A DNA stretch of 64,000 bases, taken from NCBI RefSeq assembly GCF_038957035.1, contig NZ_CP152412.1:2042501-2106500 (forward strand), in the 5' to 3' direction. The stretch's first letter is position 1, and the number at the start of each line of letters is the position of its first letter. The stretch is from Bradyrhizobium sp. B097. GTDB taxonomy: Bacteria; Pseudomonadota; Alphaproteobacteria; Rhizobiales; Xanthobacteraceae. This document shows positions 22,121 through 43,986 of the stretch, piece by piece. The notes beneath the pieces were generated by a model that saw only the letters and a program-made list of their open reading frames with translations, was not told where the DNA came from and searched no databases. Position numbers and translations under genes: made by a program.

Positions 22121-23170
22121 ATGCCAAAACCCTTTCCAATGAACGCGTGGTACGCGGCCGGTTGGGATGCCGAGATCAAGCACGCGCTGCTGCCGCGGAC
22201 GATCTGCGGCAGGCATGTCGTGATGTACCGGAAGGGCGACGGCGAGGTCGTAGCGCTCGAGGATGCCTGCTGGCATCGCCTCGTGCCGCTCTCCAAGGGC
22301 CGGCTCGACGGCGATACCGTGGTCTGCGGCTATCACGGCCTGAAATACAATGCGCAGGGCCGCTGCACCTTCATGCCCTCGCAGGAGACGATCAATCCAT
22401 CGGCCTGCGTGCGTGCCTATCCCGTCGTCGAGCGCCATCGCTTCATCTGGCTCTGGATGGGCGATCCCGCGCTGGCCGATCCCGCGCTGGTGCCCGACAT
22501 GCACTGGAATCACGATCCGGCCTGGGCCGGCGACGGCAAGACCATTCACGTCAAATGCGACTACCGCCTCGTCGTCGACAATCTGATGGACCTGACCCAC
22601 GAGACCTTCGTGCACGGCTCGAGCATCGGCAATGATGCGGTCGCCGAAGCGCCGTTCGACGTCACCCATGGCGAGAAGACCGTGACCGTCACGCGCTGGA
22701 TGAGGGGCATCGAGGCGCCGCCGTTCTGGGCCAAGCAGTTGCAGAAGCCGGGCCCGGTCGATCGCTGGCAGATCATCCGCTTCGAAGCGCCGTGCACCGT
22801 CAACATCGACGTCGGTGTCGCGCCGGCCGGATCCGGCGCGCCGGAGGGCGATCGCTCACAGGGCGTCAACGGCTATGTGCTCAACACCATCACGCCGGAG
22901 ACCGAGAAGACCTGCCACTACTTCTGGGCCTTCGTCCGCAACCACCGCATCACCGAGCAGCGCCTGACCAGTGAAATCCGCGACGGCGTCGCCGGCATCT
23001 TCCACGAGGACGAGATCATCCTGGAAGCGCAACAGCGCGCGATGGACGAAAATCCGGACCGCGTGTTCTACAATCTCAACATCGATGCAGGTGCGATGTG
23101 GGCGCGCCGCGTCATCGACCGCATGGTGGCGAAGGAAAATCCGCCACAGCAGTTGCAGGCCGCCGAGTAG
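22121..23170 (+). CDS. vanA: Vanillate O-demethylase-type Rieske oxygenase subunit
   Basis: The 349-residue protein has an N-terminal Rieske [2Fe-2S] site (C50, H52, C69, H72) and a mononuclear iron site in DNLMDLTHETFVH (H160, H165 and a nearby Asp). Size and sequence match the VanA class of aromatic-ring O-demethylases, which convert vanillate to protocatechuate and formaldehyde. An FCD regulator and a VanB-type reductase follow at 9 and 12 bases. A related methoxy-aromatic or other aromatic substrate is possible. Confidence 0.87.
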   Translation: MPKPFPMNAWYAAGWDAEIKHALLPRTICGRHVVMYRKGDGEVVALEDACWHRLVPLSKGRLDGDTVVCGYHGLKYNAQGRCTFMPSQETINPSACVRAYPVVERHRFIWLWMGDPALADPALVPDMHWNHDPAWAGDGKTIHVKCDYRLVVDNLMDLTHETFVHGSSIGNDAVAEAPFDVTHGEKTVTVTRWMRGIEAPPFWAKQLQKPGPVDRWQIIRFEAPCTVNIDVGVAPAGSGAPEGDRSQGVNGYVLNTITPETEKTCHYFWAFVRNHRITEQRLTSEIRDGVAGIFHEDEIILEAQQRAMDENPDRVFYNLNIDAGAMWARRVIDRMVAKENPPQQLQAAE

Positions 23171-23179
23171 GAGCAAACC

Positions 23180-23926
23180 ATGGCGGAACGCGAAGCCGAT
23201 CGCTCAGTGTCGCACACCGTGCGGGCGCAGCTCGCGCTGCGCGACCTGGTTCTCTCCGGCCGGCTGCGGCCGGGCGAGCGCATCTCGGAACTGCAGGCGG
23301 TCGAGATCACCGGGGTGTCGCGCACGCCGGTGCGGATGGCGCTGGTCCGGCTGGAGGAGGAAGGCCTGCTGGAGGCGATCCCGTCCGGCGGATTCATGGT
23401 CAAGGCGTTCTCCGAACGCGACATTCTCGATTCGATCGAGCTGCGCGGCACGCTGGAGGGCCTTGCCGCGCGCTTTGCCGCCGAGCGCGGCGTCTCGTCG
23501 CGCGATCTCGAGCCGCTGAAGGAATGCCTCAACGAGATCGACGGCCTGGTGCGGCAGGATTCGATCTCGGTTGAAGCCTTTTCGTCCTATGTCGCGCTCA
23601 ATGCACGCTTCCACGCACTGCTGACCGAGCTGTCGCGCAGCCCGCCACTGATCCGGCAGATCGACCGCGCCTCGGCGCTGCCATTCGCCTCGCCGAGCGG
23701 CTTCGTGATGGCGCAATCGGCCTTGCCCGAGGCGCGCCAGATCCTGCTGATCGCGCAGGACCATCATCGCGTGGTGGTCGACGCCATCGAGAATCGCGAG
23801 GGCGCGCGCGCCGAAGCGATCATGCGCGAGCATGCCCGGCTGGCGGCACGCAATCTGCGGCTGGCGCTGCGCAACCGCACGCACCTTGATCTGCTGCCGG
23901 CATTGGCGCTGGTCACGGCCGGCTGA
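23180..23926 (+). CDS. vanR: GntR/FCD transcriptional regulator of the van operon
   Basis: The 248-residue protein has an N-terminal winged HTH (RLRPGERISELQAVEITGVSRTPVR) and a C-terminal FCD helical ligand domain with metal-type histidines (ARFHALL, DHHRVVVDAI, REHARLA). It sits inside the van operon between oxygenase and reductase genes. The palindrome TGATGTATACATCA over the vanA promoter is the likely target. A substrate- or product-relieved repressor is expected for this family. Confidence 0.85.
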   Translation: MAEREADRSVSHTVRAQLALRDLVLSGRLRPGERISELQAVEITGVSRTPVRMALVRLEEEGLLEAIPSGGFMVKAFSERDILDSIELRGTLEGLAARFAAERGVSSRDLEPLKECLNEIDGLVRQDSISVEAFSSYVALNARFHALLTELSRSPPLIRQIDRASALPFASPSGFVMAQSALPEARQILLIAQDHHRVVVDAIENREGARAEAIMREHARLAARNLRLALRNRTHLDLLPALALVTAG

Positions 23927-23938
23927 ACGGAGCGCGCG

Positions 23939-24919
23939 ATGCGATTCATTGAAACCTGGACCTCCGCCACGCTGCTTGCGACGCGCGACCTCACGCCCGG
24001 CATCTGCGAATTCCTGCTGCGGCCGGATAATTTCACCGCCGCGCCCTATCCCGTCGGCAGCCACATCGACGTCGGCGTCACCATCGAGGGCCAGCCGCAG
24101 ACCCGGTCCTATTCGCTGGTCGGCGAAGTCGATCCGCAAGGTTTTCGAATCGCGGTGCGGCACGCAGCGGATTCCCGCGGCGGCTCGCGCTACATGTGGT
24201 CGCTCGCGCCGGGGGCGCGGCTCGCCATCACGCAGCCCGCCTCGCTGGTGCAGCTCGACTGGACGCGGCGGCATTTCTGCCTGATCGCGGGTGGTGTCGG
24301 CATCACGCCGATCGTCGGCGCGGCGCAGGTGCTGGCCCGCCGCGATGCCGCGGTGACCTTGCACTATGCGGTGCGCACGCGCGGCGACGCGGCCTACCTC
24401 GATACACTCGAGCGTCTGCTCGGCGACCGCCTCATCGTCCATGCCGGCGACGAAGGCGGGCGGCTCGACCTCGACGGCGTCTTCGCAGGCTTGCCGCAGG
24501 ATACGATGACGTTGTTCTGCGGCCCGATGCGGATGCTGGATGCGGCGCGGCGTGCCTGGGAAGCGTCCGGCCGAGCGATGACCGATCTGCGCTACGAGAC
24601 CTTTGGATCGAGCGGGCTGCTGCCGACCGAGGCGTTCCGCGTGCGGCTCAGAGGTGAGGGGACCGAGTTCGTGATCCCGCGCGACCGCTCGATGCTGGAC
24701 GTGCTCAACGAAGCCGGCCATGAGGTGATGAGCGACTGCCGGCGCGGCGAATGCGGCGTCTGTGCGATAGACGTGGTCGATGTCGACGGCGAAATCGACC
24801 ATCGCGACGTCTTCTTCAGCGATCACCAGAAGCAGGAGAGCCGCAAGATCTGCACGTGCGTCTCGCGTGTCCGCGGCACCATCACGGTGGACACCTTGCA
24901 TCGCGCCGACGCGCTCTGA
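23939..24919 (+). CDS. vanB: Vanillate O-demethylase-type reductase (FMN/NAD and 2Fe-2S)
   Basis: The 326-residue electron-transfer protein is ordered as flavin-binding domain (RSYSLVGE near 60), NAD-binding domain (GGVGITPIVG near 121; CGPMRMLDAA) and C-terminal plant-type ferredoxin. The ferredoxin cysteines are in CRRGECGVC and CTCVSR. It passes NAD(P)H electrons to the VanA Rieske centre. It is the last gene of the operon. Confidence 0.88.
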   Translation: MRFIETWTSATLLATRDLTPGICEFLLRPDNFTAAPYPVGSHIDVGVTIEGQPQTRSYSLVGEVDPQGFRIAVRHAADSRGGSRYMWSLAPGARLAITQPASLVQLDWTRRHFCLIAGGVGITPIVGAAQVLARRDAAVTLHYAVRTRGDAAYLDTLERLLGDRLIVHAGDEGGRLDLDGVFAGLPQDTMTLFCGPMRMLDAARRAWEASGRAMTDLRYETFGSSGLLPTEAFRVRLRGEGTEFVIPRDRSMLDVLNEAGHEVMSDCRRGECGVCAIDVVDVDGEIDHRDVFFSDHQKQESRKICTCVSRVRGTITVDTLHRADAL

Positions 24920-24937: not shown

Positions 24938-26899
24938 CTACGCCGCGTGCTCCGAGCGCTGCGGATTGCGATCGAGCAGCGCGGAGATATCGCTGCCCGA
25001 CATCGGCCGGCCGATCAGATAGCCCTGCACCTCGTCGCAACTGGTCTGGCGCAGATATTCGAGCTGATCCGCGGTCTCGACGCCTTCGGCCACGACGCCG
25101 ATCTGCAGGTCCTGCGCGAGGCTAATCACCGATTTGACGATTGCGGCGCAATCCGGCTGGGTCAGCATGTCCCGGATGAAGGATTGATCGATCTTGATGC
25201 GGCTGAACGGCAGTTTGCGCAGATAGGTCAGCGACGAGAACCCGGTGCCGAAATCGTCGAGCGCGACCGTCAGGCCGAGCTCGAGCAGCCCGTTCAGGAT
25301 CGCCGGCGCCGATCCGTATTTCGAGATCAGCATCGATTCGGTGATTTCGATCTCCAACCGGTTCGGCGCGACGTTCGCCTCGGCAAGCGCCTCGACGATG
25401 GTCTGCAGGATGCCGACGTTCTGGAACTGGACCGCGGAGAAATTCACCGCGATCCTGATGTCGTCAGGCCAGCGCGACAGCATCGCGCAGGCGCGACGGA
25501 TCACCCACTCGCCGAGCTGGTGGATCAGTCCGCTCTCCTCGGCGATCGGAATGAAGACGCTGGGCGGGATCAGACCACGCGTCGGATGCTGCCAGCGCAG
25601 CAGCGCCTCGAAGCCGGTAACGCGGCCTTCGCGGATGTCGAGGAACGGCTGGTAGACCAGAAACAGCTGGTCGGCCTCGATGGCCTGTTCCAAATCGCGC
25701 TGCAGCGCGCGGCGGTCGCGCGCCGATTGGTCGTCGCTGGCCTCGAAGAAGCAGATGGTGCCGGGGCCGGATTTCTTCGCCCGGTAGAGCGCGATGTCGA
25801 CATGCTTGAGCAGATCGTGGGACGTGTTGCCGTCCCGCGGCGCGAGCACGATGCCGATGCTGATCGCGCTGGTGATCTCGAACCCGTCGATCGGGAACGG
25901 ATCGGCGAACGCCGCAACGAACCGCTCGGCAATCGCGAGCGCGTCCTCCGGCCGCGTCAGATTGGACATGATCAGCGCGAATTCGTCACCGCCGATCCGC
26001 GCGACATGCTCGGCCGCGCGTGTGCAGCGCTGCAACCTCGCCGCAAGCTGCACCAGGAGTTCGTCGCCCGCCGGATGGCCGAACCTGTCGTTGATCTCCT
26101 TGAGGCGATCGAGATCGAGCAGCAGCACCGCGAATTCCTCGCCCGAGCGCTCCAGCCGGCTCAGCGCAGCATTGAGCGCCTCGTTGAAGGCGACGCGGTT
26201 CGGCAGATGCGTCAACGGATCCTGCCGCACCGTCCGTTCGGCCTCGTGCTGGGCGATGATGCGACGCCTGAATTCGAATGCGTTGAGGAACACGCCGCGC
26301 AGCAGCACGGAGCCGTAGACCAGGACGAGCACGGCCATCAGCAGATAGATGAAGTCGCCGTCCCTGCCGAGGCAGATCGCCGTGCCGACGAAGATCGGCC
26401 CGGTGAAGGCAATGGCGGCGATCGGGATGGTGGAGAAGGCGAAGGCGCCGCCGGCCAGCATGCCGGCGCAAAGACAGGTGATCACCAACTGGGCGCCGCT
26501 CGATGCGTTCGCGAAGAATGCGACCGGGACGACGCCCCAGGCCGCGCCGAGCGCCAGCGCATTGCGCACCAGCCGGTACATGGTCCGGCGCGACACGAAT
26601 TGCGGCTTGGCGATGCGGCGCGATGCGCGCACCTGCATGCCGAAGAACAGCGCCGCGCTGCTCACCGCGGCGGCCCACACCAGCGCGAACGCCCAATCCG
26701 GCGATTGCCACAGCGCAACCGCGAGCACCAGCGCGTTGCAGGCGTTGGCTAGCATGATGCCGAAGGAATAGCCGAGCACGAGCGAAACCTGCTCGGCGCG
26801 GATGTGGCCGGCAAGCGCTTCGTCCGTCGGTGGTGCGCCGAAGGCCGCGAGGTCACCCGCGAACAGGGTCGCGAAATATGATCTGAGATCGATACGCAT
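24938..26899 (-). CDS. Membrane GGDEF/EAL c-di-GMP enzyme
   Basis: The 653-residue protein from ATG 26899 (26929 or 26956 are alternatives) starts with a hydrophobic region of about five to seven TM helices. A GGDEF domain (RIGGDEFALI) and an EAL domain (FEALLRW, NFSAVQF, EITESM, DDFGTGFSS, KIDQSFI) follow. Both motifs are intact, so it may be bifunctional, or a phosphodiesterase tuned by its GGDEF domain. It is convergent with vanB and only 18 bases from it. Confidence 0.9.
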   Translation of the reverse strand: MRIDLRSYFATLFAGDLAAFGAPPTDEALAGHIRAEQVSLVLGYSFGIMLANACNALVLAVALWQSPDWAFALVWAAAVSSAALFFGMQVRASRRIAKPQFVSRRTMYRLVRNALALGAAWGVVPVAFFANASSGAQLVITCLCAGMLAGGAFAFSTIPIAAIAFTGPIFVGTAICLGRDGDFIYLLMAVLVLVYGSVLLRGVFLNAFEFRRRIIAQHEAERTVRQDPLTHLPNRVAFNEALNAALSRLERSGEEFAVLLLDLDRLKEINDRFGHPAGDELLVQLAARLQRCTRAAEHVARIGGDEFALIMSNLTRPEDALAIAERFVAAFADPFPIDGFEITSAISIGIVLAPRDGNTSHDLLKHVDIALYRAKKSGPGTICFFEASDDQSARDRRALQRDLEQAIEADQLFLVYQPFLDIREGRVTGFEALLRWQHPTRGLIPPSVFIPIAEESGLIHQLGEWVIRRACAMLSRWPDDIRIAVNFSAVQFQNVGILQTIVEALAEANVAPNRLEIEITESMLISKYGSAPAILNGLLELGLTVALDDFGTGFSSLTYLRKLPFSRIKIDQSFIRDMLTQPDCAAIVKSVISLAQDLQIGVVAEGVETADQLEYLRQTSCDEVQGYLIGRPMSGSDISALLDRNPQRSEHAA

Positions 26900-27053
26900 C
26901 TCACTACGTTGCCTGCGCGGTTTGGCCATGGCGCAATGGCGAAGAATTCTCTGCAAACCTTTGACAAACTATGAACTATTGGAACGGACCGTGCCACGGC
27001 GGGCTCACGTTTTGGTTCCACCGGCAGGCATTGCTAACAAATCGATACAAATG

Positions 27054-27088
27054 CGTGACGGGTGTCGCGGCGGGCCGTGACGGGTGTC
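27054..27088. repeat. Short direct repeat pair
   Basis: CGTGACGGGTGTC occurs at 27054-27066 and again at 27076-27088, a period of 22 bases, about two helical turns. It lies upstream of the broken VOC gene and could be an old operator. Confidence 0.4.
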
Positions 27089-27184
27089 ACGGACCGGCCA
27101 AGCTTGCCCCCGCGCGGCTTGATCCTCCGCCGGTTTTTCGCAATGACTTGAGTTCCCGCGACCGGCAAGAACCAGAAGGTGCGC

Positions 27185-27466
27185 ATGAGCCTCCCGATCA
27201 CGAACCATGATCCCGGGTTTCGGATCACGCGGGCCAGCCACGTCGTCCTTGATGTCCGTGATCTCGCGGCAAGCCGGAGGTTCTACGAGAACGTGATCGG
27301 GCTGATCCTGACCGCGGAGGAGGGCGTTGCTGCCGCGCCGCCCGGGCCGAGGTGCCGCATCAGGGCCGCAGGCAGCGCCGACGAGCTCAATATGCTCGCC
27401 GGGCAACTGCTCGAAGGTCTCGGTGCGAGACATCAGTCGTTCCCGGCGACATCAGTCACTTCTTGA
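27185..27466 (+). pseudogene. Truncated VOC/extradiol dioxygenase-like gene, 5' part only
   Basis: After an AGAAGG ribosome-binding site, the ATG at 27185 opens a frame whose first ~42 residues (HDPGFRITRASHVVLDVRDL, then SRRFYENVIGLILTAEE) match the N-terminus of catechol 2,3-dioxygenase-like VOC proteins. After LTAEE (about 27321) the similarity stops and the frame runs on, antisense to other sequence, to 27466. A full member has about 300 residues, so only the first fragment survives. The frame overlaps the GlcG-like gene end. Confidence 0.6.
27322..27433 (-). pseudogene. 5' fragment of an unidentified gene after the GlcG-like gene
   Basis: On the minus strand an ATG at 27433, 22 bases after the GlcG-like stop, starts MSRTETFEQLPGEHIELVGA. 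After about 38 codons the frame runs into the antisense of the VOC fragment. It looks like the start of the next operon gene, cut by the same deletion that truncated the VOC gene. I cannot name the family. Confidence 0.45.
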
Positions 27467-27929
27467 TGTCGGCCGCGACCAGCACACGATGGCCGCGCAG
27501 CAGCTCTTGCAACGCCTGCAGGGCTGCGACGCCGCATTGGGTGTCCTGCTCGCCGTTGCCGCCGCTCAACCCGATGCCGCCGACAACCTCGTCGTCGACG
27601 ACGATCGGAAAGCCGCCGACGAACACGGCGAATTTTCCGTCGAAACTCCACTGGATGCCGAAGGCCTCGTTGCCGGGCAGGGCAGGTCCATTCGGCGGCT
27701 GGTTGAACAAATGGGTGGAGCGCTTGTGTCCGGCCGCCGTGAACGCCTTGTTCCAGGCGATCTGGGGACCGGTGATCCGCGCGCCATCCATCCGCTCCAG
27801 CGCCAGCGGATAGCCGCCGTCATCGGTCACGCAGACCGTCTCCGCAACGCCGATCTCGGCGGATTTGCGGATCGCGGCCGCGATCATGTGGCGGGCTTCG
27901 GCAAGTTCGAGTTTGAAAGTCTGTCTCAT
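27456..27929 (-). CDS. GlcG/HbpS-family (DUF336) protein
   Basis: The 157-residue protein is of the GlcG/HbpS fold (PF03928): GVAETVCVTDDGGYPLALERMDGA, then WNKAFTAAGHKRST and FVGGFPIVVDDEVVGGIGLSGG. Members are found with glycolate, alcohol and diol oxidation genes and some bind haem or cobalamin; the exact role is rarely known. It is the last intact gene of a minus-strand operon after the transporter and aldehyde dehydrogenase. Confidence 0.8.
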   Translation of the reverse strand: MRQTFKLELAEARHMIAAAIRKSAEIGVAETVCVTDDGGYPLALERMDGARITGPQIAWNKAFTAAGHKRSTHLFNQPPNGPALPGNEAFGIQWSFDGKFAVFVGGFPIVVDDEVVGGIGLSGGNGEQDTQCGVAALQALQELLRGHRVLVAADIKK

Positions 27930-27968
27930 CGCTTTGGTCCGGGATTGGAGTGGGCCTTCGACCGCGGC

Positions 27969-29474
27969 TCAGGTGCCGCGGTAGACCGTCTTGATCTGGG
28001 TGTAGAATTCGAGGCCGGTGCGGCCGGACTCGCGGAAGGTCGACGTGCTCGACCGCTTCAATCCGCCGAACGGCGCGTTGATCAAATTTCCGGTGGTGGT
28101 GCGGTTGATCTTCACCGTTCCGGACTGGATGTCATTGGCGAAATCGTGCATCGCGCGCGGGCTGCGCGTCACGATCGCGGCCGACAGGCCGTACTCGCTG
28201 GCATTGGCCTTGGCGATCGCGTCGGCATAGCTATCGACCTCGATGATCGCGATGACCGGGCCGAAGATTTCCTCGCGTGCGATCGTCATGTCCTGGGTCA
28301 CATCGCTGAAGATCGCGGGTGAGACGAAGTATCCGCCGTCATAGGCGGCACCGGTGAGCCGGTCGCCGCCATAGAGGTGCGTCGCTTCCTTTTTCCCGAT
28401 CGCGACGTAGCGCAGCACGGTTTCGAGCTGCCTCGCCGTGGCCAGCGGCCCCATCTCCATCCCGCCTGTGAGGCCGCTGCCGATCTTGATCGCCTTCACC
28501 TTGGCGAGGAGCCGTGCGGTGAACTCGGCGCGCACCTGCTTCATGACCAGGACGCGGCTGGTGCCGGTGCAGGCCTGGCCGGCCAGCGAGAGGCCGCCTT
28601 TGACGGTCAAATCGACCGCCAGATCGAGGTCGGCGTCGTCCATGACGATCAGCGGGTTCTTGCCGCCGAGCTCCATCTGCGTGCGGGTCGTGAAGCTGAC
28701 CGCGCGGCAAATCTGTTCGCCGGCGGATGTCGACCCGGTGAAGGAAATCGCCCGAATGACCGGCGGCTCGGTGATCGCAGGCCCGATCTCGCCGGCCTTG
28801 CCGGTGATGAAGTTGAGCGCGCCATTCGGCAGGCCCGCCGCAATCAGCGCCTCCGCCAGACGATAGCCGCTGAGCGGCGCATCGGACGATGGTTTGAACA
28901 CCACCGTATTGCCGGTGATGAGGGCCGGCGCGATCTTGCGCGCCGGGATGGAGATCGGAAAATTCCAGGGCGTGATCACCGACACGATGCCGAGCGGCTC
29001 GCGCAACGTATAGACCGTCATGTCTGCATCGTCGTTCGGAAACACCTCGCCGGTGAGCGACTGTCCCTCGACGGCATAGAACCGCAGGGTCTGCGCCGAG
29101 CGCAGCACTTCGTCGCGCGCGAGGCCGAGCGATTTGCCCATTTCCCGCGTCATCTCCCGGGCGATGTGATCGGCGCGGGCCTCGAGACGATCCGCGGCCC
29201 GGTTCAGGATGGCGGCGCGTTTGGAGATCGGCGTCCGCCGCCAGCCTTCGAACGCGGCGGCCGCGGCATCGACGGCCGCTTGCGCATCGGCGGCGGTCGA
29301 TTCCTGGAAGCGTCCGACCAGGTCGCTGGTGTCGGCGGGATTGACGTTCACGAACAGTCTGCCGGAGGCGCTTGCGGTCCGCTCGCCGGCGATCAGGTTC
29401 GGAAATTCCTCGATCCCTGCGCTGCCCTCCGTGGAAGGGGGCGCGTGGCGTATCGTCGTTTCAGCTATCGTCAC
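27969..29474 (-). CDS. NAD(P)-dependent aldehyde dehydrogenase
   Basis: The 501-residue ALDH has TPWNFP, KPSSDAP, the FTGST nucleotide site, the general base in MELGGK and the catalytic Cys in GQACTGTSR. Everything needed for aldehyde-to-acid oxidation is present. It lies directly after the transporter gene (gap 10 bases). By context it would oxidise an aldehyde made from an alcohol by the GMC enzyme encoded at 34226-35857. Confidence 0.9.
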   Translation of the reverse strand: MTIAETTIRHAPPSTEGSAGIEEFPNLIAGERTASASGRLFVNVNPADTSDLVGRFQESTAADAQAAVDAAAAAFEGWRRTPISKRAAILNRAADRLEARADHIAREMTREMGKSLGLARDEVLRSAQTLRFYAVEGQSLTGEVFPNDDADMTVYTLREPLGIVSVITPWNFPISIPARKIAPALITGNTVVFKPSSDAPLSGYRLAEALIAAGLPNGALNFITGKAGEIGPAITEPPVIRAISFTGSTSAGEQICRAVSFTTRTQMELGGKNPLIVMDDADLDLAVDLTVKGGLSLAGQACTGTSRVLVMKQVRAEFTARLLAKVKAIKIGSGLTGGMEMGPLATARQLETVLRYVAIGKKEATHLYGGDRLTGAAYDGGYFVSPAIFSDVTQDMTIAREEIFGPVIAIIEVDSYADAIAKANASEYGLSAAIVTRSPRAMHDFANDIQSGTVKINRTTTGNLINAPFGGLKRSSTSTFRESGRTGLEFYTQIKTVYRGT

Positions 29475-29484
29475 AGGACTCTCC

Positions 29485-31026
29485 TCAATGCCAGATCAGC
29501 ACCGCGCAGACGGTCGACACCGCGAGCCCGGTCAATACGGGGACCATCGCCGTCCGCACGATCTGGAAGACGGGGACGCGCGCGAAGCCGGCCACTGCGA
29601 TCAGCGACGACCAGGCCACCAGCGTGCCGCCGCCGGTCCACACCGCGCCCATCTGGCCGATCGCGGCGAGCGTCGCCGGCTCCATTCCGACCGACGGTGC
29701 CAGCGCGCCCGACAGTGAGCCGGTCAGCGGCAAGCCGGCAAAGCCCGAGCCGTCGATGCCGGTGATCATGCCTGATATCAGGATGCCGAAGGCGACGAAA
29801 ATCTCGTTGCCGGGGATCCAGGCCTGCGCGGTCTGGATCAGTTCGAACAGGAGGCTCGGCGCCTGGGCCGCGGGTACCCCGAGGATCGGGGCAGACAGGC
29901 TCGGCTCGGCGCCGAGAAAGAAGAAGCCCGCGATCGGCAGCACGGAGCCCATCGCCTTGAATGCGAAGACGAAGCCTTCGGTGACATGGTCGGCGCTGGT
30001 GTCGAGGAATTTGCGCAAATCATCGGTGATGAAGGATGCGCAGATCATCAGGATCGCGGCGACGCCGCCGACCAGTGCGGCAGCGTCGCCGCCCTTGAGG
30101 TCGTGGCCGACGCCGAGCTTGGCCAGCACCATCACCGCGATGACGCAGAGAAAGGCGAGCGGGGTCGCAACCGCAAAGAATTTCGACCAGCCTTCGCGGC
30201 GCGTCGGTACTCCGGCGAGCTCCTTGTCGATCTGCGCCTGGGTCGCGAGCGGCCGCTGGCCGTCGGCGGTGCCGCGTGCGATCTCCGCCTTGTCGAAGCT
30301 GCCTTCCTGCTCCAGCCGTGCCAATTCGCCATTGCTCGACTGCGCCTGCCAGCGCTCCAGCAGCCGCTCGTCGGGCTTGGTGATCGACTTGCGGATCGAA
30401 AGATAGGCGAGCGTCAACGCGATGCCGCCGGTGATGAGGGACAGCACCAGCGCGCGGTCCGCGACGGTGGCGGCGCTGACCGCGGCGCCGGCCGCCTTGG
30501 CGCTGATCCCGGGCGCAACGCCGATCACATAGTCCGACGACAGCGCCATGCCCTGTCCGGCGATCGCGATCGCAATGGCACCGCCGAGCGGCGACAGGCC
30601 GGCCGCAATCGCCGCGGGCAGCAGCACCGCGGAGACCAGCGGCACTGCCGGTGTCGGCCAGAAGAACAGCGAGATCACATAGGTGATGGCGGCAAGCACG
30701 AAGTAGGCGGTGTGTCCGCTTTTCATGATGGCGCGGAACGGTTCGACCATGCGAATGTCCGAGCGCAGCACCTTGAGCGCGTTCAGCAGCGCCGTCATCA
30801 GCGCGATCACCAGGAAGATGTTGAACAGCTCCTTGGCGGCGGTGAAGCTCGCGTTGAAGACGCTGGCGAGCGCTGCGACCGGGCTGTGCGTCCAGGCCAG
30901 CGCGACCAGGAGTGTCGCGACCACCGACGGCACCACGACGTTGGCGCGCCAGATCATGGTGAGAACGATGACGGCGACGCCGAGCAAATAGACCCAGTGC
31001 GCGGCAACGATCGGAGCGTGCTGCAT
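29485..31026 (-). CDS. Multi-helix organic-anion transporter-like membrane protein
   Basis: The 513-residue protein has about 12 hydrophobic helices and a hydrophilic loop in the middle (about 230-290, rich in Gln/Glu/Arg). Gly/Pro-rich re-entrant-like stretches (WPTPAVPLVSAVLLPAA; ITGIDGSGFAGLPLTGSL) recall ion-transporter-superfamily carriers such as DcuC, GntP or CitM types. The exact family is not clear to me. The start is ATG 31026 after GAGGGG; the longer frame is unlikely. First gene of the minus operon, transcribed from an operator-bearing divergent promoter. Confidence 0.75.
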   Translation of the reverse strand: MQHAPIVAAHWVYLLGVAVIVLTMIWRANVVVPSVVATLLVALAWTHSPVAALASVFNASFTAAKELFNIFLVIALMTALLNALKVLRSDIRMVEPFRAIMKSGHTAYFVLAAITYVISLFFWPTPAVPLVSAVLLPAAIAAGLSPLGGAIAIAIAGQGMALSSDYVIGVAPGISAKAAGAAVSAATVADRALVLSLITGGIALTLAYLSIRKSITKPDERLLERWQAQSSNGELARLEQEGSFDKAEIARGTADGQRPLATQAQIDKELAGVPTRREGWSKFFAVATPLAFLCVIAVMVLAKLGVGHDLKGGDAAALVGGVAAILMICASFITDDLRKFLDTSADHVTEGFVFAFKAMGSVLPIAGFFFLGAEPSLSAPILGVPAAQAPSLLFELIQTAQAWIPGNEIFVAFGILISGMITGIDGSGFAGLPLTGSLSGALAPSVGMEPATLAAIGQMGAVWTGGGTLVAWSSLIAVAGFARVPVFQIVRTAMVPVLTGLAVSTVCAVLIWH

Positions 31027-31060
31027 GGTTGTTGCTTTCCCCTCTAATGCGGCGAATAAT

Positions 31061-31073
31061 GTATACTGTATTC
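31061..31073. promoter_or_regulatory. Operator A: GTATAC-T-GTATTC
   Basis: One mismatch from the palindrome GTATAC-N-GTATAC. It lies 35 bases upstream of the transporter start and its centre is 189 bases (18 x 10.5) from operator B. The likely ligand is the GntR/FCD regulator encoded at 33239. Confidence 0.6.
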
Positions 31074-31231
31074 CGCAATGGCAAGCGCAAATTGCGAGCT
31101 GGCGATCCATGCGTCGAAGAAGGATGGGAGCGTCTCCGACCGCATTTTTGTGCAACGGAAGCACAAAATAGCGGCGATTCAATGCGGTCGGTGTCGGGTG
31201 GGAGGGATGGCGGGGAACCCGGCCTTCGATG

Positions 31232-31262
31232 TTGACAGGCGCAAAGATAGTATACAGTATAC
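31232..31262 (+). promoter_or_regulatory. Operator B and promoter of the HDO operon
   Basis: A consensus -35 TTGACA (31232-31237) is followed by the perfect 13-base palindrome GTATACaGTATAC (31250-31262), which covers the expected -10 region (18-base spacer to AGTATA). This fits repression of the rightward operon, with a leader of about 65 bases to the ATG at 31336. Confidence 0.65.
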
Positions 31263-31335
31263 CGAAATAGCCGACCGAAACGGACCGATGGTCCGTTGCC
31301 GGGCGGCGATTTCTTCACGGCACAGGAGCGCCACG

Positions 31336-32103
31336 ATGCAAAAGCTGATGGATCACGTGGAATTTCGAGCGGCCCTCGAAAATGCCATCAAGGGAAAGAG
31401 CGCCAACAAGGCTCCGTTCAGCGTCGCCTGGGCGAGCGGCAAGCTCAGCCGCGCGCATCTCGCGCGCTGGGCCGAGAACCACTACCACTATGTCGGTCCG
31501 TTCGCCGACTACCTCGGCTACATCTATGCGCGGATGCCGGAGCAGTACCAGGAAGCCAAGGACTTCCTGCTCGCCAATATGTATGAGGAAGAGATCGGGG
31601 GCGACCGTCACACCGATCTGCTGATCCGCTTCGCGGAGGCCTGCGGCACGACCGCGGCGCGCATCAAGAACCCCGACAACATGACGCCGACGACGCGCGG
31701 GCTGCAGAGCTGGTGTTATGCGGTCGCGATGCGCGAGGATCCGATCGTCGCAGTGGCCGGCCTCGTGGTCGGTCTGGAGTCGCAGGTCCCCTCGATCTAT
31801 CGCAAGCAGACGCCGACCCTGCGCGAGAAGTACAAATTCACCGACGAGGAAGTCGAGTTCTTCGACCTTCACATCGTGTCGGACGAGATTCACGGCGAGC
31901 GCGGCTACCAGATCGTGCTCGAGCATGCCAATACGGTCGAGCTGCAGCAGCGTTGCCTCAAGATCTGCGAGATCGGCGCACAGATGCGGCTGCTCTATAC
32001 CACCGCGCTGTACCACGACTATGTCGCAAACGACATTCCGCTGGCGGAGCTCGATCTGGCCAGCGGTGTGTCCGCTAAAGAACGCGTGCTGTTGCAGGCC
32101 TGA
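31336..32103 (+). CDS. Haem-oxygenase-like diiron oxidase (PqqC/CADD/TenA-like superfamily)
   Basis: The 255-residue all-helical protein starts at the ATG behind AGGAG. A full six-ligand diiron set is visible: E85-x6-H92 (EEIGGDRH), E148 (VGLESQVP) and H179-x3-D183-x2-H186 (HIVSDEIH). The spacing is nearly that of CADD (E81, H88, E142, H174, D178, H181, from memory). It is therefore probably an O2-activating HDO and not a TenA thiaminase or cofactorless PqqC. Two ferredoxins encoded downstream could supply electrons. Substrate and reaction are unknown. Confidence 0.8.
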   Translation: MQKLMDHVEFRAALENAIKGKSANKAPFSVAWASGKLSRAHLARWAENHYHYVGPFADYLGYIYARMPEQYQEAKDFLLANMYEEEIGGDRHTDLLIRFAEACGTTAARIKNPDNMTPTTRGLQSWCYAVAMREDPIVAVAGLVVGLESQVPSIYRKQTPTLREKYKFTDEEVEFFDLHIVSDEIHGERGYQIVLEHANTVELQQRCLKICEIGAQMRLLYTTALYHDYVANDIPLAELDLASGVSAKERVLLQA

Positions 32104-32124
32104 GTCGCGGGGAGCAGCGGCGCG

Positions 32125-32469
32125 ATGCCCAACGTCATCTTTCACCGCAACGGCGAGACCTTTGTCGGCGAGGTCAAGGAGAACACCAATCTGGTGGTCC
32201 GCGCCGGCATCCGCCAGTTTCCCTATCCCAACTTCCTTTACGGCTGCGGGATGGGGAAGTGCGGGAAGTGCGCGTCGCTCATCATCAAGGGCGGCGAGCA
32301 CTTGCCGGAGCCGAACTGGAAGGAAAAGAAGCGCCTCGGTGCCAGGATCGAGCAGGGATATCGCCTCGCCTGCCAGCTCTGGCTCACGCATGACGTTGAA
32401 CTGTCGCAGGAGGCAGCCCCGCTGGTCGACGTCGTCGCGCCGGCCGGCGCCGCGGTTGGGAGGACGTGA
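32125..32469 (+). CDS. [2Fe-2S] ferredoxin 1 of the HDO operon
   Basis: The 114-residue protein has the plant-type cluster motif C41-x4-C46-x2-C49 with C83 completing the set. The Lys-rich surface (KKRLGARIEQGYR) and acidic C-terminal half suit protein docking. It starts 21 bases after the HDO gene and is probably translated from the same mRNA. No reductase is encoded in the cluster, so it must be reduced by a shared reductase or by the GMC or other partner. Confidence 0.87.
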   Translation: MPNVIFHRNGETFVGEVKENTNLVVRAGIRQFPYPNFLYGCGMGKCGKCASLIIKGGEHLPEPNWKEKKRLGARIEQGYRLACQLWLTHDVELSQEAAPLVDVVAPAGAAVGRT

Positions 32470-32472
32470 CCG

Positions 32473-32769
32473 ATGTACGTGATACTGACGAGCAAGCCGG
32501 GGCAGTTTCGCACCGAGATCGCTGACGGCCTGCGGCCGCTCGCGGCCTACGACTACCTGTTCTACGGCATCAGGAAGGCGACGTTCGTGATCGCCGAGCT
32601 GCTCGAGGAGACCAAGGTCAGGGTGATCGACGAGGCCTGGTCGCCGCCGATCGTGAACGAGGTGCCCTCGAAATTCCTCGAGAAGTTCGAGACGCCCGAG
32701 CGGGCGCTGCACGAACTCGAGCACCTCATCACATTCGGTCACATGGACACCAAGCTGCGCAAGCGCTGA
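32473..32769 (+). CDS. Small unrecognised protein between two ferredoxins
   Basis: The 98-residue soluble protein starts MYVILTSKPGQFRTE and has mixed alpha/beta character, one short hydrophobic strand (ATFVIAELL) and a charged C-terminus. It has no cysteines and no signal peptide. I do not recognise the family. It begins 3 bases after ferredoxin 1 and ends 12 bases before ferredoxin 2, so it is firmly part of the operon. A role as an oxidase or ferredoxin effector subunit is a guess. Confidence 0.75.
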   Translation: MYVILTSKPGQFRTEIADGLRPLAAYDYLFYGIRKATFVIAELLEETKVRVIDEAWSPPIVNEVPSKFLEKFETPERALHELEHLITFGHMDTKLRKR

Positions 32770-32781
32770 GCGGATGGCGGG

Positions 32782-33111
32782 ATGATCGAAGTCACGTTTC
32801 TGACCAATGGCGGGAAAACCGTCACTGCCGCGGAGAACAGCAATCTGCTGCGCGTCTCGCTGCGCGAGCAGGGCGGCATTCCGTTCAAGTGCGGCGGCGG
32901 CCTGTGCGGAACCTGCAAATGCCTGATCGAGAAGGGCATCGAGAACACCGATGCGATCAAGCCGAAGGAGCGAAAGCACCTCACCGACGCGCAGTTCGCC
33001 GCCGGCTATCGGATGGCGTGCCAGACCTTTCTCACCGGCAGCGTGAGCGTGTCGTGGGTGCCGAAAGCCGCGGTGCCGGCGGCTCGACCTGTAGCTGTTG
33101 ACGGCGAATGA
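32782..33111 (+). CDS. [2Fe-2S] ferredoxin 2 of the HDO operon
   Basis: The 109-residue plant-type ferredoxin has C37-x4-C42-x2-C45 and C80; an extra C47 follows the loop. It differs clearly from ferredoxin 1 in the cluster loop (CGGGLCGTC against CGMGKCGKC), so the two are not a recent duplication. It probably serves a second electron step or partner of the HDO enzyme. Confidence 0.87.
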   Translation: MIEVTFLTNGGKTVTAAENSNLLRVSLREQGGIPFKCGGGLCGTCKCLIEKGIENTDAIKPKERKHLTDAQFAAGYRMACQTFLTGSVSVSWVPKAAVPAARPVAVDGE

Positions 33112-33238
33112 GCGCGGCTTGATGGCATGCAGCCGGCGGTCTAAATACGCAACAGCGGTCATTCGGCCAGGACTCTGGCAGCTCGTTGGACCTCCGGTGT
33201 CCATGCATTGAGCGAAGCGCGGCCGGACAGGTCGGTTC

Positions 33239-34048
33239 ATGGCAGGCAAGCTCGGAAGCTCCAAACGTCTCGGCGACGACTACCTCTCCCTCCACGGCAG
33301 GGTGATCGAGGAGCTGCGGCAGGCGATCCTGAGCCGGCGGCTGAAGCCCGGCGAGCGGCTCGTCGAGGGCCGCCTCGCCGATGAGCTCGGTGTTTCCCGC
33401 AATCCGGTGCGCGAAGCGATCCGCGTGCTGGAGTCGGAGGGGCTCGTCGAGGTGACCGCGCGGCGCGGTGCCTCGGTCATCACGATGAGCGATGAGGAAG
33501 CGCGCGAGACGGTCGAAGTCCGCGCGCTGCTCGAGGGACAAAACGCGCGCCTGGCTGCGCGGCGCCGCGAAGAGAGCATCATCAAGCGGATCGCGGCGGT
33601 GTTGAAGCAGGGCAACGAGGCGGTCGCGGGACGGCGCTACGACCTGTTGTCGGATCTCAACCAGCAATTCCATCATGAATTGGCGGAGGCCGGCCGCAAC
33701 CGCGTGCTCGCCGATCTGCTGAAGCGGCTGCGCGAACGCACGGCGATGCTGTTCTCGCCCACCGATCCGGTGCGCCAGGCGCGGACCTGGGATGAGCACG
33801 CCGCGATCCTGCGCGCCATCATCGCCGGCGACGAGCGCGCCGCCGCCACGCTTGCCGCCGAGCATGTGATGCGCGCCGGTGCGGATTTTCTCTCGAGCCT
33901 CCATGTGCCCGATGAGGAGACCTCGCTGGAGGCGGCGTCGGCGAAATACGGCCTGCCGTCCGGCTCCCGCGTGGATCAGACGGCGACCAAGCCGGCGCGC
34001 CGGAACCAGCAGCGCGCCGGTACGCGGCGGCGAAAAGCAGAGAGCTGA
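33239..34048 (+). CDS. GntR/FCD transcriptional regulator of the HDO cluster
   Basis: The 269-residue protein has an N-terminal winged HTH (LKPGERLVEGRLADELGVSRNPVREAI), an FCD domain with QQFHHELAE, EHAAILRAI and AAEHVMRA, and a long basic tail (ARRNQQRAGTRRRK). It sits between the ferredoxins and the GMC gene on the same strand. The GTATAC-type palindromes at 31061 and 31250 are its likely operators, by analogy with the FCD-controlled van operon in this window. Confidence 0.85.
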   Translation: MAGKLGSSKRLGDDYLSLHGRVIEELRQAILSRRLKPGERLVEGRLADELGVSRNPVREAIRVLESEGLVEVTARRGASVITMSDEEARETVEVRALLEGQNARLAARRREESIIKRIAAVLKQGNEAVAGRRYDLLSDLNQQFHHELAEAGRNRVLADLLKRLRERTAMLFSPTDPVRQARTWDEHAAILRAIIAGDERAAATLAAEHVMRAGADFLSSLHVPDEETSLEAASAKYGLPSGSRVDQTATKPARRNQQRAGTRRRKAES

Positions 34049-34225
34049 ACGCGCCCGTCGCATTGATGGTTTGTGGCCGCCGATCCTGCGGTGAAAGGTC
34101 CGGTGGTACCGCTCCGGATCGCCGGCTAACTTTCTTGACCGTATCTGCCACGCTCGCTACGTCTCTTCCCAATGCTGGGCAGGGGCGCAACTCTGCCGGC
34201 CGCGCCGCATGGCCGGGGGAAACCA

Positions 34226-35857
34226 ATGAACAACAACAAGGATGGCGCATCGACGAACGATGTCGCCGAGTATGATTACGTGATCGTCGGCGCCGGCTCG
34301 GCCGGCTGCGTGCTCGCCAACCGCCTGAGCGCCGACGGCAGGCACTCGGTGCTGCTGCTCGAGGCCGGGCCGAAGGACACTAACATCTGGATCCATGTCC
34401 CGCTCGGCTACGGCAAGCTGTTCAAGGAAAAATCCGTCAACTGGATGTACCAGACCGAGCCCGAGCCCGGCCTGAACGGACGCCAAGTTTTCCAGCCGCG
34501 TGGAAAAGTGCTCGGCGGCTCCAGCTCGATCAACGGGCTGCTCTATGTGCGCGGCCAGCAAGAGGACTATGACCGCTGGCGGCAGCGCGGCAATGCCGGC
34601 TGGGGCTATGACGACGTGCTGCCCTATTTCAGGAAGGCGGAGGATCAGCAGCGCGGCGGCGACAAATATCACGGCGCGGGCGGCCCGCTGCCGGTGTCGG
34701 ACTGGCGGCACCACGATCCGCTGTCGGAAGCCTTCGTGCATGCCGCGGCCGAGGTCGGCATCCCGACCAATCCGGATTTCAACGGCGCGACCCAGGAGGG
34801 CGCGGGCTTCTTCCAGACCACGACGCGGCGCGGCCGGCGCGCCTCGACGGCGCGGTCCTACCTGCGGCCGGCGCTGACGCGCGGCAATCTGCATGTCGAG
34901 ACCTCGGCGCTGGCGCAGCGCATCCTGTTCGACGGCAAGCGCGCGAGCGGCGTCGCGTACAGGCACAACGGACAGTTGCGGACGGCCAAGGCACGCAAGG
35001 AAGTTCTGGTGTCGAGCGGCGCGTATAACTCGCCGCAATTGCTGCAGCTCTCCGGCGTCGGCCCCGCCGATCTGTTGAAGCAGCACGGTATCGAGGTTCT
35101 GCTCGATGCGCCCGGCGTCGGCAACGACCTACAGGATCACATGCAGGTGCGCATCGTCACGCGCTGCGCCCAGAGCGTCACGCTGAACGACGTCATCAAC
35201 AATCCGGTGCGCCGCGTCATGGCCGGCCTGCGCTACGCGGCGTTGCGCAAGGGGCCACTGACCATCGCGGCCGGCACGTCGGGGGCGTTCTTCAAGACCA
35301 GTCCGCGGCTGGCGTCGCCGGACATCCAGATCCACTTTCTGCCGTTCTCGACCGACAAGATGGGCGAGAAGCTGCATGCGTTCTCGGGCTTCACGGCTTC
35401 GGTCTGCCAGCTGCGCCCGGAGAGCCGCGGCTCCTTGAAGATCCGGAGCGCGGACCCGGGCGTGCCGCCGGAGATCCGCATCAACTACCTGGCGACTGAG
35501 ACCGATCGCCGCGCCTTCATCGACGGCATCCGCATCCTGCGCAAGATCCTGGCGGCGCCGGCGCTGAAGTCATACTCGGTCGGGGAAGTCGATCCCGGCG
35601 CCAAGGTGGTGAGCGACGACGATTTGCTCGATTTCTGCCGCCGAACCGGCAGCACGGTCTATCATCCGACCTCGACCTGCCGGATGGGCAGCGATGCGCT
35701 TGCGGTCGTCGACCAGCGGCTCAAGGTGCGCGGTGTCGAGGGTCTGCGCGTCGTCGATGCGTCGGTCATGCCGGACCTGATGTCGGGCAATACCAACGCG
35801 CCGACGATCATGATCGCGGAGAAGGCGTCGGATATGATTCTGGAGGATGCAAGGTAA
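34226..35857 (+). CDS. GMC-family FAD alcohol dehydrogenase/oxidase (choline dehydrogenase-like)
   Basis: The 543-residue protein from ATG 34226 behind GGGGGAAA has the FAD motif DYVIVGAGSAGCVLANRLS, the GMC signature GKVLGGSSSINGLLYVRG and SSGAYNSPQLLQLSGVGP. The catalytic His is in VYHPTSTCRMG and the catalytic Asn in GNTNAPTIM. It oxidises a primary alcohol to an aldehyde, with FAD at the active site. In context the aldehyde would go to the ALDH encoded across the divergent promoter. Weaker link than the HDO genes: it follows the regulator after 177 bases and may have its own promoter. Confidence 0.88.
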   Translation: MNNNKDGASTNDVAEYDYVIVGAGSAGCVLANRLSADGRHSVLLLEAGPKDTNIWIHVPLGYGKLFKEKSVNWMYQTEPEPGLNGRQVFQPRGKVLGGSSSINGLLYVRGQQEDYDRWRQRGNAGWGYDDVLPYFRKAEDQQRGGDKYHGAGGPLPVSDWRHHDPLSEAFVHAAAEVGIPTNPDFNGATQEGAGFFQTTTRRGRRASTARSYLRPALTRGNLHVETSALAQRILFDGKRASGVAYRHNGQLRTAKARKEVLVSSGAYNSPQLLQLSGVGPADLLKQHGIEVLLDAPGVGNDLQDHMQVRIVTRCAQSVTLNDVINNPVRRVMAGLRYAALRKGPLTIAAGTSGAFFKTSPRLASPDIQIHFLPFSTDKMGEKLHAFSGFTASVCQLRPESRGSLKIRSADPGVPPEIRINYLATETDRRAFIDGIRILRKILAAPALKSYSVGEVDPGAKVVSDDDLLDFCRRTGSTVYHPTSTCRMGSDALAVVDQRLKVRGVEGLRVVDASVMPDLMSGNTNAPTIMIAEKASDMILEDAR

Positions 35858-35867
35858 GACGTGATCC

Positions 35868-35972
35868 GTCATCCTGAGGTGCGAGCGCAGCGAGCCTCGA
35901 AGGATGCACGGCCACAGACGGGCCGTCGACCCTTCGAGGGCCGCTGAAGGAGCGGCCACCTCAGGGTGACGG
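35868..35972. repeat. Palindromic intergenic repeat (GTCATCCTGAGGTGCGAGC family)
   Basis: One arm reads CGTCATCCTGAGGTGCGAGC and the other closes with GCCACCTCAGGGTGACGG. The inner pair TCGAAGGATGCACGGCC / GGGCCGTCGACCCTTCGA lies between them. A shortened relative (CGACCCTTCGAG...AAGGGTGACGG) follows at 36055-36085. Confidence 0.7.
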
Positions 35973-35990
35973 TGAGACGGCGGTGTCGTG

Positions 35991-36019
35991 GCCCGGATGG
36001 AGCGAAGCGTAATCCGGGG
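35991..36019. repeat. Short palindromic repeat
   Basis: CCCGGATGGAGCGAAGCG TAATCCGGG is an imperfect hairpin of a second, short family set between the two GTCATCCTGAGG relatives. Confidence 0.5.
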
Positions 36020-36127
36020 CCGGTCCATCGACGGAGGAGGGAGAGCCGGGCCGTCGACCCTTCGAGACGCGCGCAAGGGTGACGGTGATAGAGTGGGCTA
36101 CGGGCCGATAGGCCGGGCTATCAGGCC

Positions 36128-37174
36128 TCACCCCTTATACGCGCGGACCCGTGCGACCATCTGCTCGACATGGGCGATCGGCGTCTCCGGCAGGATGCCG
36201 TGGCCGAGATTGAAGATCAGCCGCCCCTTGCCAAAGTTCTCCAGCACATCGTCCACCGCGCGGTCGAGCGCGGCGCCGCCGGCGATCAGGGCCAGCGGAT
36301 CGAGATTGCCCTGCACGGCGACGCGACTCTGCACGCGCTCGCGGATCATCGACGGCTCGGCGGCCCAATCGATCGAGACGGCATCGACGCCGGTTTGCTC
36401 GACATAGGCCGGCAGCATGCCCGCCGCGCCGCGCGGAAAGCCGATGATCCTGGCACCGGGGACCTGCTTGCGCACCCCGGCGACGATGCGCCGGGTCGGC
36501 TCGATCGACCAGCGGGCGAACTCGCGTGGCGGCAGCACGCCGGCCCAGGTGTCGAAGATCTGCAGGCAATCGGCGCCGGCCTTGAGCTGCCCGACGAGAT
36601 AGTGGATCGAGTTCTCGACCAGGACGTCGATGATCTTGGCGAAGGCGTCCGGATGGCGGTAGGCGAGCATCCGCGCCGGCGCCTGGTCCGGCGTGCCCTG
36701 TCCGGCCACCATGTAGGTCGCGACCGTCCATGGCGCGCCGCAGAAGCCGATCAACGTAATGTTCGGCGCAAGCTCGCGGCGGACGCGGCGCAGAGTTTCA
36801 AAGACCGGCTCGAGCTTGTCGAAATTGGCCTGGGTGGCCAGCGTCGCGATCTCGCCGGGCGTTGCCAGCGGATCGAGCCGCGGCCCTTCGCCGGCCTCGA
36901 AGCGCACCGAACGGCCGAGCGCGTAGGGGATCACCAGGATGTCGGAGAAGATGATCGCGGCGTCGAAGTTGAACCGGCGGATCGGCTGCAGCGTGATCTC
37001 GGTGGCGAATTCGGGCGTGAAGCAGAGATCGAGGAAGCCGCCAGCCTTGGCGCGCAGCTCGCGATATTCCGGCAGATAGCGGCCGGCCTGCCGCATCATC
37101 CAGAGCGGCGGCACGGCTTGCCGGTGGCCCGACAGGAGGTCGATGAGCGGCTTTGTGGTGGGATCCTGGGGCAC
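36128..37174 (-). CDS. hemE: Uroporphyrinogen decarboxylase
   Basis: The 348-residue enzyme of haem biosynthesis converts uroporphyrinogen III to coproporphyrinogen III. Family signatures are present: [31 protein letters not shown] with the catalytic Asp, [13 protein letters not shown] and [11 protein letters not shown]. The start is GTG 37174 after CAGGAA; the frame continues 63 codons further upstream without family similarity. It stands alone on the minus strand here. Confidence 0.93.
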
Positions 37175-42216: not shown

Positions 42217-42399
42217 GGCCGGGGTTTATCAGGCCAGCCAGACCGGCGAAACCCCGCAAAGCCATGCATTATCGGGATAATTCCTCTGGCATACCATGCA
42301 TTGCCCTGCCAGGGATGAATGTGCCATGTACGTCGCATTCCCTTGGCATCCACCCGCCGCAGCAGCATCAGACCCTCACGATCAAGCGAGCTCTCCGTT

Positions 42400-43986
42400 A
42401 TGAGGAATTTCCACTTCGCCGGCCGTTCCACGGTCCACGCCCAGAACGCGATGGTCGCAACGTCGCATCCGGAAGCGGCGCTGGTGGCCATCGACGTGAT
42501 GCGCGCGGGCGGCACCGCCGCGGACGCTGCGGTTGCGGCCTGCGCGCTGCTCGGTGTCATCGAGCCGCAATCGACCGGCATCGGCGGCGACTGCTTTGCG
42601 CTGATCCAGCCGAAGGGCGAGGGCAAGATCACGGCCTATAATGGCAGCGGCCGGGCGCCGATGGCGGCCACCGCCGAGTGGTATCTCGAACGCAAGATCC
42701 ATTCGGTGCCGCTGACCTCGGCGCATGCCGTCAGCATTCCCGGCGCGATCGACGCCTGGGACGTGATCCTCAGGGATCATGGCAAGTTCGGCTTCGACCG
42801 GCTGCTGCAGCCCGCGATCAAGGCCGCCGAGGAGGGCTATGTCGTCGCTCCGCGCATCGCCTTCGACTGGAAGAACGGTTTTGAGAAGCTGAAGAACGGC
42901 ACCAACACCGAGCGCTATCTGCTGCCGCACGGCAAGCCTGCGGTCGCCGGCGACGTGATCCGCCAGCCCGAACTCGGCAAGACGCTGCGCGCGATCGCGC
43001 AAAAGGGTCGCGACGCCTTCTATAGCGGCGAGATCGCCGCCGACATGGTCGACACGCTGCGCGGTATCGGCGGCCTGCATACGCTGGAGGACTTTGCGGC
43101 GCATTCGACCGAGACGACCTCGCCGATCGGCACGATGTACAAGGGCTATGACGTCTGGCAGTGCCCGCCGAACGGCCCCGGCATCACCATGCTGGTCATG
43201 CTCAACATCCTGTCGCGCTTCGACCTGACCAAGTTCAAGCCGCTCAGCATCGAGCGCTTCCACCTCGAGGCCGAGGCGGCACGCATCGCCTACATGATGC
43301 GCGAGCAGTACATCGGCGATCCCCAGCACGCCCATGTCGATGTCGCCGGTATCCTCTCCAAGGAGTTCGCCGACGAGCACATCAGGAACATCCGGATGGA
43401 CCGGCTGCTCGAATTGCCGAACGTCGCGCCGCCGATGAATCCCTCGACCGTCTACATCACGGTGGTCGACAAGGACCGCAACGTCTGCTCCTTCATCAAC
43501 TCGATCGCGCACTCGTTCGGCTCGGCGATCGTCTCCAACAAGACCGGCGTCCTGCTGCAGAACCGCGCCGGCGGATTCCGCATCCAGCCCGGCCATCCGA
43601 ACTGCATCGCGCCGGGCAAGCGTCCGCTGCACACCATCATCCCGGCGCTAGCCACAAAAAACGGCCGCGCGGTGATGCCGTATGGCGTCATGGGCGGGCA
43701 GTATCAGCCGGTCGGCCAGACCCGCGTGCTGACCAACATGCTCGACTATGGCTGCGACATTCAGGAGGCGATCGACATGCCGCGCGGCCTGCATTACGAG
43801 GGCGTCTACCAGCTCGAGCACAGCGTGCCGGCGGAGATCGTCGAAGGCCTGAAGAAGATCGGCCACAAGACCACCAGCGTGGTCGCGCCGCTCGGCGGCG
43901 GCCAGGGCATCTGGATCGATTGGGAGAAGGGCACGCTGACCGGCGGCTCCGATCCGCGCAAGGACGGCTGCGCGCTCGGCTACTGA
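42400..43986 (+). CDS. Gamma-glutamyltransferase-family protein
   Basis: The 528-residue Ntn-hydrolase has the autocleavage region at [11 protein letters not shown], where the Thr would be the new N-terminal nucleophile, and downstream GGFRIQPG and [14 protein letters not shown] blocks. There is no obvious signal peptide, unlike most GGTs, so it may be cytosolic and closer to the YwrD/oxamate-amidohydrolase-like branch. ATG 42400 was chosen over the longer frame at 42319. Substrates are uncertain. Confidence 0.82.

Follow-up and report, generated by a model that had tools for sequence, protein, structure and literature searches.

A conserved, divergently transcribed gene cluster around a heme-oxygenase-like diiron oxygenase in Bradyrhizobium and other Proteobacteria

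A stretch of 64,000 nucleotides from contig NZ_CP152412.1 of Bradyrhizobium sp. B097 (hereafter the window, to which all coordinates refer unless a locus is named) contains a conserved, divergently transcribed gene cluster with a shared operator region, built around a heme-oxygenase-like diiron oxygenase (HDO). The cluster is real, conserved and undescribed in the literature that could be searched, and as an HDO system it is probably of a catabolic and multicomponent kind. It probably represents a catabolic regulon under the control of an FCD regulator, in which the HDO is run as a multicomponent oxygenase with a small protein of 98 residues (u98) as its accessory and acts on a nitrogen-containing organic acid.

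Composition and conservation of the cluster

The HDO (255 aa; 31336..32103, plus strand) carries at E85, H92, E148, H179, D183 and H186 the six residues of a 3H/3C diiron ligand set, the complete set that a preceding interpretation of the DNA alone (the sequence-only reading) had named. In a search of solved-structure sequences they fall on the ligands of CADD, and none of them varies among the HDO rows aligned (83 of 83). Judged by the model PF14518 (7e-37; 127.3 bits against a cut-off of 28.9), the enzyme has a heme-oxygenase-like fold, and it is the sole match to this model in the 9.25-Mb genome of the strain. Its Pfam matches at E ≤ 0.001 were PF14518 and PF03070 only, with none to a ferritin-like diiron hydroxylase. 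Downstream on the same strand lie the genes for two ferredoxins of the [2Fe-2S] type, fd1 (32125..32469; PF00111, 3.7e-6; Cys 41, 46, 49 and 83) and fd2 (32782..33111; PF00111, 4.5e-13), on either side of the gene for u98 (32473..32769), followed by a GntR/FCD regulator (33239..34048; PF00392 and PF07729). The minus strand carries a transporter (TR; 29485..31026, 513 aa from its likely start), an aldehyde dehydrogenase (ALDH; 27969..29474, 501 aa; PF00171, 5e-160) and a GlcG/HbpS-like protein (27456..27929, 157 aa; PF03928, 6e-34). The genes lie at the coordinates given in the sequence-only reading, and its FCD, ALDH, GlcG and GMC assignments are upheld by the Pfam matches.

Conservation was examined in 83 loci, comprising 80 retained out of 112 encoding stretches from GTDB and three of six close plasmid matches. 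By record title, those from GTDB belong to Bradyrhizobium, to other Alphaproteobacteria including Acetobacteraceae, and to Betaproteobacteria including Cupriavidus, Achromobacter, Variovorax, Hydrogenophaga and Bordetella. Among the seed matches, fd1, u98 and fd2 are neighbours in all 83 loci, with u98 always in the middle, and the HDO is present in 82, no more than two positions from u98 in 73; the lone locus without it (L065) begins 250 bp ahead of fd1 at a contig end. The gene order, whose recurrence in other genomes had been made a condition of the original proposal, is thus conserved. In the 58 full loci, defined by at least 8 kb on either side of u98, with each partner counted at an identity threshold (40% or more for FCD, 60% or more for GMC), the HDO was found in 58, GlcG and FCD in 57 each, ALDH and TR in 46 each, a Fer2-FAD-NAD reductase (RED2) in 29, OCD in 19, TauE in 17, GMC in 8 and a gamma-glutamyltranspeptidase (GGT) in 7.

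At the level of whole genomes, u98 (E ≤ 0.001) and the HDO (E ≤ 1e-15) occur in the same 6 of 198 genomes of the window strain's family and in the same 36 of 200 genomes of a betaproteobacterial family, the latter belonging to three genera and hence not being independent events; none of these 398 genomes carries either protein alone at the cut-offs used. The sequence-only reading had noted an unrecognised small protein beside the HDO; its strict pairing with the enzyme had been overlooked.

HDO matches at E ≤ 1e-8 were obtained in 17 of 398 genomes of a phylum-wide sample, four of them at 87-100% identity, one at 46% and the rest at 31% or less. A unit in genome G333 (locus L108) resembles the cluster in having an HDO of 44-46% identity with adjacent GlcG and FCD genes, and differs from it in that no ferredoxin or u98 seed match was found within 19 kb and no match anywhere in the genome to the u98 profile, the same profile that matched the 36 genomes above. 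HDO-GlcG-FCD may therefore be the older unit. In the HDO of G333 an insertion separates the first Glu ligand from the first His ligand, and a Rieske-like protein is encoded divergently upstream of the unit (L108, 8429-11150). A locus of Cupriavidus basilensis (L036, 4686-12500) contains the HDO twice, one copy with ALDH, GlcG and the reductase and the other with fd1-u98-fd2.

The small protein and the electron supply

No match to u98 was found in Pfam, in NCBIfam or among the PDB sequences, and the protein thus stays unrecognised, as it had been in the sequence-only reading; the Pfam search was extended to an E-value of 10 and gave no indication of an MmoB/DmpM-family effector. Homologues numbered 766 at E ≤ 0.001. 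At least 51 of 84 aligned rows carry no Cys and no His reaches 95% conservation. AlphaFold2 (68 sequences; pLDDT 95.6) predicts a well-ordered, beta-rich protein with one helix, for which fold comparison named no relative, a result that does not prove a new fold. Among the six parts compared between Bradyrhizobium and the Betaproteobacteria, u98 is the least conserved (mean identity 54.7%) and the HDO the most (85.4%). Some homologues of u98 (P0010, P0011, P0103 and P0106) are named ferredoxin in the database, a name which, in a family without conserved cysteines, may stem from the neighbouring genes.

Multicomponent monooxygenases have small cofactor-free effector or assembly proteins encoded beside their electron carriers. 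Since u98 is strictly paired with the HDO, small, without an obvious cofactor and encoded between the electron carriers of the oxygenase, it is read as an obligatory accessory, most likely an effector or coupling protein or, as the next most likely role, an iron-site assembly factor. The second role, in which u98 would deliver iron or assemble the cluster without taking part in catalysis and the rest of the scheme would stand, is the strongest of the alternatives and has perhaps a modest chance of being correct. Phenol hydroxylases, with their small assembly proteins, provide a model for it, and the low conservation of u98 and its place in the fd1-u98-fd2 trio are consistent with it, as is the cluster lability noted for many HDOs in the available part of a 2026 review. 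The strict pairing suits both roles alike, and the scarcity of Cys and conserved His leaves u98 with little to hold iron.

Fer2 matches both ferredoxins, whose cysteines are invariant (84 of 84 rows for fd1 and 82 of 82 for fd2), which confirms the pair proposed beside the HDO. A likely source of their electrons is RED2, which adjoins GlcG in 34 of the 83 loci, mostly betaproteobacterial and including also Bradyrhizobium L018, the Hyphomicrobiales metagenome-assembled genome L029 and Azospirillum L037. Model searches with the Caballeronia copy gave matches to BenC, AntC and MmoC, each under its cut-off, and its solved relatives include a cytochrome P450 reductase (5ogx), BenC, the electron-transfer component of toluene 4-monooxygenase, a carbazole ferredoxin reductase and component C of methane monooxygenase. 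The sequence-only reading had missed this reductase, which is clustered in other genomes.

Upstream of the HDO cluster, the window encodes a VanA-like Rieske oxygenase and then a FAD-NAD-Fer2 reductase (22121-24919), the latter, at 23939, adjoining the former; an FCD-like match (34%) sits between the two genes. This reductase is present also in loci L008-L012 and L016.

Operator, partner genes and the proposed pathway

The promoter region shared by TR and the HDO holds two operator-like sites, as had been proposed: site 1 (GTATACTGTAT; 31061..31071, plus strand) lies 35 bp upstream of the TR start and site 2 (GTATACAGTATAC; 31250..31262) 74 bp upstream of the HDO start. The palindrome GTATAC was counted 172 times in the 83 divergent intergenic gaps of 78 loci, which span 21.5 kb (8.0 per kb), and 136 times in the remaining 1.47 Mb of the loci (0.093 per kb), an enrichment of about 86-fold, and 81 of the 83 gaps contain at least one copy. 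To allow for a possibly higher A+T content of intergenic gaps than of genes (these gaps are 54% G+C), the count was repeated there for every one of the 24 palindromic hexamers composed like GTATAC; the next two after GTATAC reached 9 each and the other 23 ranged from 0 to 9, the mean over all 960 hexamers of this composition being 4.3. The longer form GTATACNGTAT has three matches in the strain's own genome, all in the HDO/TR promoter, compared with five in the genome for a reversed control pattern. The GntR/FCD regulator is presumed to be the reader of this operator.

The operator also marks a wider set of genes, which had escaped the sequence-only reading. GTATAC within 450 bp upstream was scored over 85 loci, a measure on which genes inside operons score low, and was found for the HDO in 75/85, TR in 62/64, FCD in 30/77, u98 in 20/85, fd1 in 18/84, ALDH in 12/56, TauE in 11/24, OCD in 6/26, GGT in 5/11, RED2 in 0/35 and GMC in 0/10. 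The values for the NMT1 binding protein (5/6), amidase (4/4) and isochorismatase type (1/7) are biased, as these seeds, together with MHS, were picked once operators next to them had been noticed, which weakens them as evidence. In a relative of the window strain within its family (L126, 8296-12024), the genes for an isochorismatase-type hydrolase and for an ABC importer of the NMT1 type are divergently arranged, and a second operator pair (9142 and 9272) lies between them.

TR has no Pfam match; its predicted structure resembles the ion-transporter (IT) superfamily and shows the fold of the DASS/TRAP/ArsB group, which suggests an anion-type transporter. The best NCBIfam model for ALDH is alpha-ketoglutaric semialdehyde dehydrogenase (551.7 bits, below the cut-off of 770). 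Amide hydrolases of three kinds occur in 18 of 85 loci, and some loci have NMT1/THI5-like binding proteins and a hydrolase that resembles RutB at a score under the cut-off. The choline-dehydrogenase-like GMC oxidoreductase (34172..35857, plus strand; PF00732/PF05199) is peripheral, because it is found in 10 of 83 loci, all of Bradyrhizobium by record title, and never with the operator; the step from alcohol to aldehyde formerly assigned to it is accordingly not supported. A gene of the gamma-glutamyltranspeptidase family lies about 6.5 kb downstream of the cluster (42319-43986), and the GGT recurrent in betaproteobacterial loci is distantly related to it (35%).

In the proposed pathway, TR would import a nitrogen-containing organic acid, and NADH would supply electrons that reach the diiron site of the HDO by way of a flavin/[2Fe-2S] reductase and then the two ferredoxins, the reductase being clustered in many relatives and presumably borrowed from elsewhere in the genome by the window strain. 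With u98 acting on it as effector or coupling protein, or else as assembly factor of the iron site, the HDO would attack the substrate with O2, by C-N or C-C cleavage or hydroxylation, and release an aldehyde for oxidation by ALDH. Hydrolysis of a linked amide bond could fall to the amidohydrolase that a given host happens to have, and the FCD regulator would control the regulon at the GTATAC palindromes.

Besides the narrow spread of the 36 genomes and the biased partner counts, several observations weigh against this scheme. A RED2-type reductase is lacking from the window cluster, the best matches in the strain's own genome being 32% identical or partial, and most Bradyrhizobium loci are likewise without one. 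TR and ALDH are each absent from 12 of the 58 full loci, and the amide hydrolases, OCD and TauE each accompany the HDO in a minority of loci. Fold comparison links u98 to no known effector. The long operator form is found at the cluster in three of seven cluster-bearing genomes (G000, G138 and G169), only away from it in G071 and G517, and nowhere in G004 and G446. Most characterised HDOs are, according to the available part of the 2026 review, biosynthetic.

The partner genes could also be arranged as an organosulfonate pathway, in which the oxygenase frees sulfite and an aldehyde, ALDH takes the aldehyde and TauE exports the sulfite. TauE, found in 23 of 83 loci and preceded by the operator in 11 of 24 cases, agrees with such a route, as do ALDH and the anion-type and NMT1-type importers. 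However, TauE is missing from 60 of the 83 loci and proteins of its family can export anions other than sulfite, while the amide hydrolases and OCD are left unexplained; this route is considered unlikely.

Comparison with known systems

The HDO was also compared with established members of the heme-oxygenase-like superfamily. PqqC and TenA are of the same superfamily, and PF03070 (TENA_THI-4) matches the HDO at 38.5 bits (cut-off 22), which together with the NMT1/THI5-like proteins and RutB-like hydrolase of some loci would fit a TenA-like enzyme of pyrimidine or thiamine-type salvage or breakdown in place of a diiron oxygenase. This is quite improbable, as all six diiron ligands are invariant, PF14518 and CADD-like sequences score higher, the ferredoxins would have no role, and no Rfam match at the gathering cut-off occurs in window positions 26500-36500. 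The HDO is far below the cut-off of the PqqC equivalog (48.9 bits against 240), and PQQ and thiazole synthesis on the heme-oxygenase-like fold is metal-independent according to the accessible part of a review. Many of the at least 120 HDO homologues are named pyrroloquinoline-quinone synthase in their source, some TenA family transcriptional regulator and others iron-containing redox enzyme; such names may hide the cluster. One name among the homologues listed is that of a gammaproteobacterium, Billgrantia.

The nearest solved sequences are 4-aminobenzoate synthases, with whose ligands those of the HDO align, but an HDO devoted to the biosynthesis of p-aminobenzoate or another cofactor is hardly credible in view of the score against the CADD family model (92.7 bits, cut-off 200), the Ser29 and Gln158, invariant in 83 rows, at the positions of the sacrificial Tyr and partner Lys of CADD, and the transporter, ALDH and FCD regulator, which point to catabolism.

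A full-text literature search, judged by titles or the beginnings of abstracts, returned no description of the HDO-fd1-u98-fd2 cluster and no pathway assigned to it, in keeping with the earlier view that the system is undescribed. The accessible part of the 2026 review counts about a dozen characterised HDOs, predominantly acting on fatty or amino acids, and states that none of those investigated so far requires a protein effector. The present cluster, with its whole partner set conserved across Alpha- and Betaproteobacteria, makes testable both the protein gating of O2 activation in HDOs and the role of uncharacterised HDO clades in carbon and nitrogen breakdown, and its GTATAC operator provides a handle for finding the inducer. 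The putative gating by u98 is the boldest part of the proposal and is cleanly testable.

The nearest functional precedent is MboA/MboB of mangotoxin biosynthesis (PMC13185094, 2026), in which the HDO is served by a reductase of its own, of the NAD(P)H/flavin/[2Fe-2S] kind; the available part of that article presents the two as what may be the first pair of an HDO and a dedicated redox partner. It differs in being a biosynthetic acetylenase acting on a tripeptide, and separate ferredoxins or a u98-like protein are not mentioned in that part.

Soluble methane monooxygenase, toluene 4-monooxygenase and phenol hydroxylase each combine a diiron oxygenase with [2Fe-2S] electron carriers and a small cofactor-free protein. 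The cluster shares this architecture, including, in the 34 loci with RED2 though not in the window, a reductase like those of MmoC, toluene 4-monooxygenase and BenC; it differs in that its oxygenase is of the heme-oxygenase-like superfamily and u98 has no Pfam match. It is tentatively suggested, as something that may well prove otherwise, that the cluster evolved independently as the equivalent, among HDO systems, of the bacterial multicomponent monooxygenases, gated by u98 as a dedicated effector, served by its own reductase-ferredoxin chain and used in catabolism and not for natural products.

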